A stretch of DNA of 37,187 nucleotides from Candidatus Ozemibacteraceae bacterium (GTDB taxonomy: Bacteria > Muiribacteriota > Ozemobacteria > Ozemobacterales > Ozemobacteraceae). Both the position numbers and the translations under genes were made by a program. The notes below the pieces were generated by a model that was not told where the DNA came from, did no database searches, and saw only the letters and a list, made by a program, of their open reading frames with translations. Every line of letters begins with the position of its first letter. The first letter of the stretch is position 1. The stretch covers positions 1 through 37,187 of the forward strand of contig CALLCO010000199.1 of NCBI GenBank assembly GCA_937998695.1, given 5' to 3'. Of the stretch, positions 22,568 to 26,910 are shown in pieces.

Positions 22568-23167
22568 ATGTCTGGAACGACCGAACCACCGGCCAACCGC
22601 CGGTTCGATTGGGGGCCGACCTCCGACCAATCCCTCGACGGGGTGAAGGAGTGGGCGGTCTATGCCATCCTCGTCGTGCTGATGGGGGTCTGCGGATGGT
22701 GCCTGATCGATTTCGACAAGGCTCCGCTCGCCGTCCGGCCCACGGAAGCACCGCTGCCTGACGCTCCGACGCCGACCGTCGTGGCTGGGGCGGGAGCCGG
22801 GCCCGTGCGCCCGGCGGGCCCGGGTTCTTCCGGCCGGGCCGCGGGGACAGGGGCAGGCACCGAAATGAAGACTGGAGCCGGTCGAGGCACGGCGCCAGGC
22901 GAGGGCTCCCCCGCGGGCGCGGCCGTTCCCGACGCCCCGCTGGCCTTCCATGTCCAGTTGGGGGCCTTTGGCGACGAGGATTCGGCCCGCCTCGCTCAGG
23001 AGCGGGCCCGCAAGAAGGGGTTCGAAGCCGTCCTGACAAAACCGAACGACCAGTATGAGATGTACCGGCTGACCATCGGCCCCTTCGCCGACGAGGCGGC
23101 GGCCGAAAAGGTCGCCCGCCAGTTGAACGAGTTGGATTTCCCTTGTTTTGTGATAGAATCCCCCTGA
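22568..23167 (+). CDS. SPOR-domain membrane protein
   Basis: The 199-residue product has a short cytosolic N-terminus, one membrane segment (about 29-47), a low-complexity Ala/Gly/Pro linker (50-120) and a C-terminal SPOR domain (about 124-199) beginning FHVQLGAFGDEDSA and ending PFADEAAAEKVARQL...FVIES. SPOR domains bind denuded glycan strands at the division septum, so the protein is likely a bitopic inner-membrane septal factor of the FtsN/DedD type. It follows amrS by 62 bases but appears to have its own promoter. The linker accounts for most length variation in this family; nothing is truncated. Confidence 0.9.
   Translation: MSGTTEPPANRRFDWGPTSDQSLDGVKEWAVYAILVVLMGVCGWCLIDFDKAPLAVRPTEAPLPDAPTPTVVAGAGAGPVRPAGPGSSGRAAGTGAGTEMKTGAGRGTAPGEGSPAGAAVPDAPLAFHVQLGAFGDEDSARLAQERARKKGFEAVLTKPNDQYEMYRLTIGPFADEAAAEKVARQLNELDFPCFVIESP
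23132..23159 (+). promoter_or_regulatory. Promoter of the sugar ABC transporter operon
   Basis: TTGGAT (23132-23137), a 16-base spacer and TAGAAT (23154-23159) preceded by TGA (extended -10). It lies inside the last codons of the SPOR gene and would start transcription about 36 bases before ATG 23202. Confidence 0.55.
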
Positions 23168-23201: not shown

Positions 23202-24137
23202 ATGAAGAAGGAAACCCTCAGTTCCCTCTTGTTCCTTCTGCCGTTCCTGGTCCTGTTCGGTATCTTTCTGCTGTTCCCGATCGCCTACTCGTTCTTCCTG
23301 AGCTTCTTCGGCTCGCCACGGGATTTCAGCCTGTCGAACCTCGAGTTCGTCGGGTTCTCGAACTACATCAACATCTTGGGCATCCACCGGACCCCGACCG
23401 GCTGGAAGCTGAATGATCCGCAGTTCTGGTGGTCGCTGGCCGTGACCGTCCTCTACGGCGGCATCAGCATCCCGCTCGGCATTGCCGCCGCTCTCGGGCT
23501 CGCCCTGCTGCTCAACAACAAACTGCGCGGCAAGGAGTTCTTCCGCAGCGCCTTCTTCCTGCCCAACGTGCTCGACATGCTGGTGGTCGGCGTCATCTGG
23601 TACCTGATCTATGCCCCGAAGTACGGGGCGCTGGCCCAGATCTCGACCGTCTTCCTCGGCCCCGACAATTTCTTCAACACCACCGGCCTGCTGGGTAGCC
23701 CCCTCACCGCCCTGCCGGCCGTCGTCATCGCCATGGTGCTGAAGGGGGCCGGCTTCGGCATGATTCTGTTCCTGGCCGCCCTGCAGAACATCCCCGAGTG
23801 CATCTACGAGGCCGCCGACATCGACGGCGCCAGCAAATGGGAGCAGTTCTGGCGGATCACCCTGCCCCTGCTCAAACCGATCCTGGTCTTCATGGTGATC
23901 ACCGGGGTCATCGGCTCGCTCAACGCCTTCACCGAGATCTACGCCATGACCGCCGGCGGCCCGCAGGTGGTCATCGGCGACGAGACCCTGGGCAGCACCT
24001 CGGTCTCCGGCTACTACCTGTACAAACAGTTCGAGGGCGGCCGCTACGGCTACGCCGCGGCCATCTCCTACGTGCTGCTGACCGTCACCCTGATCATCAC
24101 CTTCGTCCAGCAGAAGTTCTTCGCTGGGGCGAAGTAG
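23202..24137 (+). CDS. Sugar ABC transporter permease, MalF/UgpA type
   Basis: The 311-residue product has six hydrophobic segments and the permease EAA loop YEAADIDGASKWEQFWRI (near residues 200-220), which contacts the ATPase. The N-terminus (LLFLLPFLVLFGIFLLFPIAY) and KGAGFGMILFLAALQNIPE are typical of the carbohydrate uptake CUT1 family. The start has AAGGGG eight bases upstream. Next in the operon are a second permease (12-base gap) and a solute-binding protein. The substrate cannot be read from sequence; a mono-, di- or oligosaccharide or glycerol-phosphate is likely from the family. Confidence 0.93.
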   Translation: MKKETLSSLLFLLPFLVLFGIFLLFPIAYSFFLSFFGSPRDFSLSNLEFVGFSNYINILGIHRTPTGWKLNDPQFWWSLAVTVLYGGISIPLGIAAALGLALLLNNKLRGKEFFRSAFFLPNVLDMLVVGVIWYLIYAPKYGALAQISTVFLGPDNFFNTTGLLGSPLTALPAVVIAMVLKGAGFGMILFLAALQNIPECIYEAADIDGASKWEQFWRITLPLLKPILVFMVITGVIGSLNAFTEIYAMTAGGPQVVIGDETLGSTSVSGYYLYKQFEGGRYGYAAAISYVLLTVTLIITFVQQKFFAGAK

Positions 24138-24149
24138 TAGGAGGCCGCC

Positions 24150-25646
24150 ATGCTCGAAAGCGCCCCTTTCCGCGTCGTCGCCTTCGTCCTGCTAATCGCT
24201 GGCCTCATCGTCCTGTCGGGCGGGGTGGTCGGGCAACTGCTGAAGTTCGGGACCATGGTCGTGGTCAGCCTGACCCACCAGCCCGTCGTCAATCCAGCCT
24301 TCCCCGAGGCGACCCTGCTCAAAGAACTCGACGGGCTCGCCGGCCAGGTCTTCGAAGGGTATCTGGCGCCCCTTCCCGGTGAGCGGCCTGACGTCTTCGC
24401 GACCGACTCGCCCCTTAAGGATGCTTCGGCCTGGGGCGCCTTCCTGGCCACCACCAAAGAACAGTTCGGCCGCGGCGGGGCCCGCTTCCTCGACAAGGAA
24501 GCCAGCTGCGTACAAGCCCCCGGCGCCTCCGTCCGGCTCGTCTACCGCATGGTCTTCGAGAAGAACAAGAAGGGCCGGGTCGCCTTCGACTTCGCCCGCG
24601 GCGAAACCGGGTGGCGCATCACCCAGGTCGAACCGGGCACCCATATCACCGTGATGGACCGCCTCGAACCGGTCGTCGATGCGGCGACCGGGGTCTGCGT
24701 GCTCGCCCTCGTCCTGCTGGTGATCGCCAAGTGGCTGAAAACGCCGGCCCACGGGCGGGCCGACTTCCTCAAGGCGATGGCCCTCTACGAGGCTTTGACC
24801 GTCGGGGTGATCGTCGTCCTTTTCCCCTTCTTCTGGATGTTCTGCACCTCGTTCAAGGCATCGGGCACCGAGCTGATCTTCAACGAGAAGAATCCGTTCG
24901 ACATCGTCCCCAACGAGCCGACCCTCGACAACTTCAAGAAGGTGCTCAAGATCGATCAGGCGGTCGTGCCAGGCGCCCGGGTCGACGACGTGATCGAACA
25001 GAAGAACAACTTCAGCACCTACTTCATCAACAGCCTGTTCGTCGCCACCACGGCCGCCTTCCTGGTGACGCTGTTCTCGGCGATGGCGGCCTACGTCTTC
25101 TCGAAGAAGGAACTGCCATTCAAGAACGGCTTGTTCAGCGTGCTGCTCGGCACGATGATGATCCCCGGCCTGATGTACATGGTGCCGCAGTTCTTCATGA
25201 TCTGCCAGATGGGGCTGACCGGCACCAAGCTGGCGATGTTCCTGCCGCATCTGGCCTCAGTGTTCGGGGTGTTCATGCTCAAGCAGTACATGGACACCAT
25301 TCCCAGCTCACTGCTCGAGGCGGCGCGCATCGACGGCGCCTCGGAGTGGCAGTGTTTCACCGTGGTGATCATCCCGTTGGCCATGCCGATCATCCTGACC
25401 CTGTTCCTGCTCACCTTCCTGTTCCACTGGTCGAACTTCCTGTGGCAGTTGATCGTCACCGACTTCGCCAACCCGCTCAGCATCACGTTGCCGGTCGGCC
25501 TCGCGCTGTTTCGCGGGCAGTATACCTCCGAGACCGGACAGATCATGGCCGCCTCGTGCTTCTCGATCGTGCCCATCGCCGTGCTCTTCCTCATCGCCCA
25601 GAAGTATTTCATCGAGGGCATGACGCAGGGCGCGGTCAAGGAATGA
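24150..25646 (+). CDS. Sugar ABC transporter permease (MalG type) with a ~200-residue N-terminal extension
   Basis: Residues from about 205 to 498 form a normal CUT1 permease with six membrane segments and the EAA loop LEAARIDGASEWQCF (near 388). The first 200 residues are additional: a hydrophobic stretch (8-40), a soluble domain of about 135 residues (45-177) and a further membrane helix (178-196). The soluble part contains VRLVYRMVFEKNKKGRVAFDF...GWRITQVEPG, which looks like a small alpha/beta (NTF2-like) fold, probably on the outer face. Common MalG-type permeases are about 270-300 residues. The start is supported by GGAGG eight bases upstream. No frameshift or internal stop separates the parts, so the fusion is real in this sequence. 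The extension might sense or hold the binding protein; that is inference. Confidence 0.9.
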   Translation: MLESAPFRVVAFVLLIAGLIVLSGGVVGQLLKFGTMVVVSLTHQPVVNPAFPEATLLKELDGLAGQVFEGYLAPLPGERPDVFATDSPLKDASAWGAFLATTKEQFGRGGARFLDKEASCVQAPGASVRLVYRMVFEKNKKGRVAFDFARGETGWRITQVEPGTHITVMDRLEPVVDAATGVCVLALVLLVIAKWLKTPAHGRADFLKAMALYEALTVGVIVVLFPFFWMFCTSFKASGTELIFNEKNPFDIVPNEPTLDNFKKVLKIDQAVVPGARVDDVIEQKNNFSTYFINSLFVATTAAFLVTLFSAMAAYVFSKKELPFKNGLFSVLLGTMMIPGLMYMVPQFFMICQMGLTGTKLAMFLPHLASVFGVFMLKQYMDTIPSSLLEAARIDGASEWQCFTVVIIPLAMPIILTLFLLTFLFHWSNFLWQLIVTDFANPLSITLPVGLALFRGQYTSETGQIMAASCFSIVPIAVLFLIAQKYFIEGMTQGAVKE

Positions 25647-25659
25647 GGGAGGGCCGCCG

Positions 25660-26910
25660 ATGAACCGCCATCCGCTGCTGCTGGCCTTCGCGGTCTTCTA
25701 CGTGCTGCTGGCCATCCTGACCTGGAGCCAGGATGTCACCCGCGCCCCCGACGGCCGCACCGTGCTCACCTTCTGGCATACCTACGGCGACGACGAGACG
25801 GCCGCCCTCAAGGAGATCATCGCCGACTGGGAAAAGCTGCCCGCCAACGCCCGCTGGACGATCCGCCCCATCCGGCTGCCCTTCGACGGGCACAAGCCCA
25901 AGATCCGCACCGCCCTGACCGTCGGGCTCGGCCCCGACATGGCCCGCGTCGACTGGTCGTTCGTCTGCGAGCTGGCCCGCAAGAACGCCTGCGTCGACCT
26001 GAGCACGCTCGGCTTCGACAAGATCAAGGATCAGTATGTGCCCGGACCCCTGCAGACCAACTTCATCGACGGCAAGTACCAGGGCTTCCCGGAACAGACC
26101 AACTGCGTCGCGCTGTTCTACAACAAGTCAATGTTCCGCGACGCCGGTCTCGACCCCGATAAACCGCCCGCCACATGGGACGAGTTCATCGAGATGGGCA
26201 AGAAGTTGACCGACGCGAAGAAGGGCATCTACGCCTTCGGCATGGACAACACCGTCTGGTGGACCCTTCCCTTCTTCAACACCTTCGGGGCCCACATGAT
26301 CTCGGAAGACGGAAAGAAATGCCTGCTCGACTCGCCCCAGGCCATCGCCGCCCTCGAATTGAAGGCTTCGCTGTTCGCCACCCACCAGATCGAGGCGGGC
26401 GCGTGGCGCGCGGGCGGCACGCCGCCCGAACAGGGTTTCCAGAACCAGAAGTATGCGATGATCTTCACCGGCCCCTGGAACCTGCCCCGCTTCGCCAACA
26501 GCAAGCTCGATTTCGGGGTGGGGCTGATCCCGGCGGGGCCGGCCGGCACCAGTTCCAACGTCGGCGGCAACAACGCTGTCATCTTCCGGGCGGGCAAGCA
26601 CCATCAAGCGTGCTTCGACTTCCTCGCCTACTTCACCTCGGCCGAAGTGCAGGCAAAGTGGTGCCAGCGGTTGAACCAAATCCCCGTCAATCTCGGAGCC
26701 TACGACCTGATCAAGGTCGACGATCCGCATCTGAAGGTCTTCCTCGAGCAGATGAAGAGCACCGTCGGGAACCCTGTGGTCACCAGCTTCGAGATGCTCG
26801 AGAATGTGGTTAACCCCGAGATGGAAGCCGTTCTCACCGGCCAGAAGAGCGCCGCCGACGCCATGCGGGATGCCGTCCGCAAGGTCGAGACCAAGGTGCT
26901 GACGTTGTAG
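25660..26910 (+). CDS. Extracellular sugar-binding protein of the ABC transporter
   Basis: The 416-residue product has the solute-binding family 1 pattern: LTFWHTYGDDETAALKEII near the N-terminus, GLGPDMARVDWSF, GFPEQTNCVALFYNKSMF, PPATWDEFIEMGKKL, FTGPWNLPRF and a C-terminal helical end. Residues 5-22 are a hydrophobic signal segment without a lipobox Cys, so the protein is either cleaved to the periplasm or held by an uncleaved anchor. It follows the extended permease by 13 bases, with GGAGGG before its ATG. With the two permeases it makes an importer lacking only the ATPase, which must be supplied from elsewhere (a shared MsmX/MalK-type protein). Substrate unknown. Confidence 0.92.
   Translation: MNRHPLLLAFAVFYVLLAILTWSQDVTRAPDGRTVLTFWHTYGDDETAALKEIIADWEKLPANARWTIRPIRLPFDGHKPKIRTALTVGLGPDMARVDWSFVCELARKNACVDLSTLGFDKIKDQYVPGPLQTNFIDGKYQGFPEQTNCVALFYNKSMFRDAGLDPDKPPATWDEFIEMGKKLTDAKKGIYAFGMDNTVWWTLPFFNTFGAHMISEDGKKCLLDSPQAIAALELKASLFATHQIEAGAWRAGGTPPEQGFQNQKYAMIFTGPWNLPRFANSKLDFGVGLIPAGPAGTSSNVGGNNAVIFRAGKHHQACFDFLAYFTSAEVQAKWCQRLNQIPVNLGAYDLIKVDDPHLKVFLEQMKSTVGNPVVTSFEMLENVVNPEMEAVLTGQKSAADAMRDAVRKVETKVLTL

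Follow-up and report, generated by a model that had tools for sequence, protein, structure and literature searches.

The question raised by this locus is why a MalG-type permease gene in a genome of the Riflebacteria encodes a long N-terminal extension, and what that extension contributes to the transporter. The usual picture of a type I importer is a minimal pair of permeases, in which a large outer domain, for example MalF-P2, is a special case. The gene is located in a window of 37,187 nucleotides, which is the whole stretch of DNA that was analyzed. The extension is genuine, but it varies: related bacteria carry other, unrelated domains on the same subunit of a transporter that is ordinary in other respects.

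The Extended Permease Gene

The extended MalG-type permease gene (24150..25646, + strand) is a single open frame that encodes 498 amino acids, and a Shine-Dalgarno-like AGGAGG (24139..24144, + strand) lies 5 nt before its ATG. Family profiles, relatives, and Foldseek identify residues 206-498 (24765..25643, + strand) as a MalG/UgpE-type CUT1 permease core. Pfam BPD_transp_1 covers residues 309-489 of the 498-residue protein (E 7.8e-13, above the Pfam cut-off). The NCBIfam MalG/UgpE profiles match from residue 207/215 to the C-terminus with E-values of 9e-34 and 4e-31, and because these matches start only there, about 205 N-terminal residues are extra. The scores lie far below the equivalog cut-offs of these profiles and so assign no particular substrate to this sugar-type permease. 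The EAA coupling motif is present as EAARIDGASEW at residues 390-400, within the segment EAARIDGASEWQCFTVVIIP (residues 390-409; 25317..25376, + strand), and D395, G396, and P409 of this region are invariant across 44 aligned permeases.

An AlphaFold model of the full permease was built with 44 sequences as input and has a mean pLDDT of 76.5. Foldseek comparisons of the modeled core with MalG (2r6g_G/3rlf_G) and SugB (8hps_B) gave E-values of about 1e-10 to 1e-11. The model features a helix at residues 5-42, an alpha-alpha-beta-beta-beta-beta segment at 54-161, and a helix at 168-197, followed by the MalG helices, and hydropathy peaks are found at 1-34, 171-201, and 205-238. The first extra helix, TMa (residues 8-26; 24171..24227, + strand), runs from in to out according to hydropathy, the model, and charges, and the second, TMb (residues 171-195; 24660..24734, + strand), runs from out to in according to hydropathy and the model. 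The soluble domain spans about residues 44-167, between these two helices. The first extra helix is long, continuous over residues 5-42 in the model, and its more amphipathic continuation, residues 25-42 (GQLLKFGTMVVVSL; 24222..24275, + strand), includes a Q-[LIMF]-x-[KR] motif that is conserved in the family, as determined from the alignment, hydrophobic moments, a motif table, and the model. This second half of the helix probably leaves the membrane on the outer side.

Profiles, hydropathy, and the model thus agree with the sequence-only reading, which had described about 200 extra residues, a helix, a soluble domain, and a helix, before a normal CUT1 permease in one frame. The same full architecture is found in two congeneric genomes, Candidatus Ozemobacter sibiricus BY5 and riflebacterium AS27yjCOA_28, and because it is kept there at 79-87% identity it is not an assembly error. 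An antisense ORF of 352 aa (24192-25250, - strand) overlaps the gene; nothing supports its status as a gene, and it is probably a by-product of high G+C.

The Operon and Its Neighbors

The partner permease is a MalF/UgpA-type protein of 311 aa (23202..24137, + strand), which was assigned by family profiles and adjoins malG in all relatives examined. Downstream is a solute-binding protein of 416 aa (25660..26910, + strand), assigned by a family profile and its N-terminus. This N-terminus (25660-25740, MNRHPLLLAFAVFYVLLAILTWSQD) is a hydrophobic helix with no lipobox and no clear signal-peptidase site, and it is probably an uncleaved anchor. Similar hydrophobic, lipobox-free N-termini are found on the binding proteins of most genera of family f1, the family of the window, and of some other families. 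Wherever examined in the phylum, malG adjoins malF and a binding-protein gene, and one strong permease ortholog is present in 35 of the 40 genomes compared, including all 17 of good quality. The gene order radical SAM, SPOR, malF, malG, binding protein is largely kept in f1. The SPOR-domain membrane protein directly upstream of malF (22568..23167, + strand; identified by profile and relatives) is of the peptidoglycan-binding type and is kept in most of f1, and a cell-envelope link of the transporter through this neighbor is conceivable. No ATPase gene was recognized within the permease operon; the only UgpC-type ATPase above the cut-off is encoded elsewhere in the genome. This single UgpC/MalK-type ATPase probably energizes the importer, and its location away from the operon would be expected for a shared, MsmX-like ATPase.

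Topology of the Extension

The orientation of the extension was determined from charges summed over 21 orthologs. The N-terminus contains 37 K+R vs 13 D+E, the positively charged linker between TMb and the core (residues 193-209; 24726..24776, + strand) contains 104 vs 29, and the loop between TMa and TMb contains 132 vs 158. This bias places the N-terminus and the linker inside and the domain outside. The homologs of the loop domain are secreted, which agrees with this placement. The charge rule and the AlphaFold model together predict that the loop domain faces outside, as the sequence-only reading had proposed, and a cytosolic topology is not indicated.

Identity of the Loop Domain

The extension alone has no significant match in direct family and PDB searches or in a PDB profile search, and no phage record matches it. 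The best Pfam match of the window domain alone has an E-value of 0.1, and the DUF4019 profile at E 0.1 finds no match over the source genome. The domain does match a secreted protein encoded elsewhere in the same genome (L007, contig C189, - strand ORF 1483-2232) with an E-value of 2e-5. This protein belongs to a secreted DUF4019/DUF3887-like family that is present in families f1, f3, and f6. An HMM made from the secreted family alone finds the three fused domains with E-values of 2e-7 to 2e-6 (1.6e-6 for the window protein), and in the control the best of 2000 shuffles has an E-value of 5. The secreted homologs match DUF4019 and DUF3887 at 1.9e-7, and the members of the joint alignment match DUF4019 (8/12), DUF3887 (6/12), MlaC (4/12), and DUF4864 (3/12). 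The relation to DUF4019/DUF3887 is visible only via several secreted homologs. For DUF3887 an NTF2-like structure has been solved, and a non-catalytic role in extracellular ligand binding has been proposed (PMC3924330).

Judged by these comparisons, the loop domain is homologous to the secreted DUF4019/DUF3887-type (NTF2-like) family, and the HMM and the secondary structure delimit the predicted extracytoplasmic domain to about residues 52-163 (24303..24638, + strand). The label NTF2-like, first given from the window sequence, is well supported through transitivity from the secreted relatives, with no confident model behind the domain. Structure prediction upheld the helix-flanked domain, with the secondary structure order alpha-alpha-beta4, and left its fold at low confidence: the pLDDT of the domain is mostly 42-72 in the full model and 50 when it is modeled alone with three sequences. 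Foldseek matches of this low-pLDDT model include MlaC-type, Tim44, and NTF2-like chains and are not significant.

Distribution of the Hairpin in Riflebacteria

The N-terminal two-helix hairpin, consisting of a helix, the Q-[LIMF]-x-[KR] motif, a loop, a helix, and the positive linker, is present in 21/21 detected orthologs of f1 and was not found on the MalG of families f4, f5, f6, and f7. In a tree of the permease core f1 forms a single clade (support 100/99), and since the hairpin occurs throughout this clade, it was most simply gained once. The loop ranges from 10 to 127 residues across f1 and has 10-75 residues in most genera. In genera g11 and g10 it has 110-118 residues, which are unrelated to the window domain and belong to no recognized family. 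The window-type domain occurs only in genus g1, in 3/3 genomes, and the nearest relative of this genus (G010) features a low-complexity loop of 75 residues. The fusion noticed in the window therefore recurs in related genomes, and the extension is never a separate gene in the relatives examined. To judge from the searched papers, the stepwise series of no hairpin, a hairpin with a short loop, and a hairpin with a domain is new. Some permease frames in f7 and f4 look long only because they read through in frame into upstream sequence; they encode no extra hairpin and were rejected as further cases.

Other MalG proteins of the phylum carry extra residues at a different site. The f3 proteins (L134-L137; genomes G025, G032, G039, and G036) have about 180 extra residues in the presumed outer loop between the first and second helices, and this insert holds a ComEA/GspK-like helix-hairpin-helix domain (Pfam HHH_3, E 4e-15 and 2e-10). 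The f2 protein (L133, genome G024) has an insert in the loop between the first and second helices with an AMPK1_CBM glycogen-binding-like match, at an E-value of 1e-4 that is under the Pfam cut-off. At the G024 locus malF contains an in-frame TAA and malG an in-frame TAG, so that this malG may be damaged or wrongly assembled, and the two parts of the binding protein read as if in exchanged order, beside a run of N. These frame faults are probably an assembly error or pseudogenes; a recoded stop codon was dropped as an explanation, as most long synthetase genes in G024 have no internal stop. If the f3 and f2 inserts are real and outside, then this operon's MalG has acquired additions more than once, at two sites. 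A broader proposal, that the Riflebacteria MalG is a modular outer platform on which independent lineages placed unrelated modules (NTF2-like, helical, helix-hairpin-helix, and glycogen-binding-like) at two sites, with transport gated by an additional ligand or a cue from the envelope, is at present speculative and rather unlikely.

Evolutionary Constraint and Function

Between species of the genus the pN/pS is 0.47-0.72 for the domain vs 0.06-0.12 for the permease core, and the domain evolves about 10 times faster than the core at nonsynonymous sites. Between the window and G001 the domain is 68% identical, the binding protein 94%, and the core 96.6%; within the genus the core is >93% identical. 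The domain is kept, but by these rates only weakly constrained. Its fast divergence argues against a tight conserved interface, and the weak constraint means that the domain may have little function.

The favored reading, which is held as probable with considerable room for doubt, is that the extension is a hairpin-borne, exchangeable accessory NTF2-like outer module on a phylum-conserved CUT1 MalG. The gene product would be the MalG-type subunit of an importer that is conserved in the phylum and consists of MalF, MalG, and the binding protein. The ancestor of the family would have gained the N-terminal two-helix hairpin with its loop outward, on the side where the binding protein docks, and the hairpin may pack beside the permease and serve to mount outer modules that can be exchanged. 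The module mounted in the genus of the window would be NTF2-like and non-catalytic, most likely an accessory domain that contacts a small molecule or the envelope and tunes transport or the capture of the binding protein. Transport probably does not depend on the domain, since the same operon contains, in other genomes, an ortholog with a 13-residue loop or one without the hairpin.

The existence of these domain-free orthologs also fits a different explanation, in which the hairpin has the structural role and the domain is a passenger, close to neutral, among the drifting insertions that the outer loop tolerates. The wide range of loop lengths, the unrelated loop content in sister genera, and the high pN/pS of the domain point the same way. 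However, this pN/pS is <1, all three species with the domain preserve its reading frame and the pattern seen in the secreted relatives, and each of two distinct loop types, about 110-127 residues long, is maintained within a genus. The passenger explanation is a serious competitor that is nonetheless doubtful.

Less probable is the proposal of the sequence-only reading that the domain may hold or sense the binding protein; it would then be a docking platform like MalF-P2 that replaces a lipid anchor. In favor of this, MalE-type proteins dock at the outer face of the subunit, where the domain is predicted to lie, the P2 domain of MalF touches MalE in E. coli (PMC3150292), and the binding protein of the window has no lipobox. 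However, across the phylum the anchor type shows no correspondence with the domain or the hairpin. A canonical lipobox is also missing from binding proteins that accompany 13-residue hairpin loops (G005, G006, G012, G017, and G021) or a MalG that has no hairpin (G028), and binding proteins with a lipobox occur together with the hairpin (G003, G004, G007, and G014). The binding protein is equipped with a hydrophobic N-terminal helix of its own and has diverged much more slowly than the domain. The argument from the missing lipobox is not supported by these comparisons, since lipobox loss shows no association with the domain, and because anchoring does not follow the domain, the accessory exchangeable module is preferred over a holder of the binding protein. 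Finally, translation of the MalG core from an internal start, with the extension either a small membrane protein in its own right or a product of misannotation, could use Met codons inside the frame (e.g., residue 210) and is highly improbable, as a good ribosome-binding site precedes the long start, every family member has one frame, and 0/21 orthologs have a stop between the parts.

Plain, short-loop, and domain-bearing orthologs of one operon are directly comparable, and the acquisition of varied outer modules by one orthologous MalG across the phylum is a natural experiment on the role of such modules.

Comparison with Known Systems

The core resembles MalG/UgpE/SugB of E. coli and Mycobacterium in sequence, predicted fold, and the EAA motif; unlike the window permease, these proteins have no N-terminal hairpin with an outer domain. 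The closest published layout is that of Thermotogales MalG1/MalG2, in which a normal C-terminal MalG part of about 300 residues is preceded by about 525 additional N-terminal residues, with a hydrophilic region of about 500 residues, of unknown function, between the first two predicted helices (PMC2246101). By that description, the Thermotogales proteins and the window permease share a layout in which an extra N-terminal helix and the MalG core enclose a large hydrophilic stretch; however, the Thermotogales region is reported to resemble no known protein, and the window domain has 125 residues and is probably NTF2-like. Enteric MalF is a CUT1 permease of eight helices, with two extra helices and the large outer P2 domain (PMC2246101). 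The window permease is likewise a CUT1 subunit with two extra helices and an outer domain, but on the other subunit and with a different domain, and P2 sits between helices 3 and 4. MalF-P2 contacts the binding protein (PMC3150292), and the window domain resembles it in layout. The domain resembles the secreted NTF2-like DUF3887/DUF4019 domains in its extracytoplasmic placement and in a sequence relation that runs via secreted Riflebacteria proteins. DUF3887/DUF4019 domains are known as fusions to membrane and enzyme domains, and the window domain differs from the architectures described in the consulted part of that source (PMC3924330) in being fused to an ABC permease.

A partial literature search, which is weak evidence, found no NTF2-like fusion to a permease and no extra MalG helices beyond Thermotogales. 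The NTF2-like module on a permease is new as far as the searched papers show, and the layout is not new in kind, because Thermotogales MalG1/MalG2 and enteric MalF-P2 precede it.
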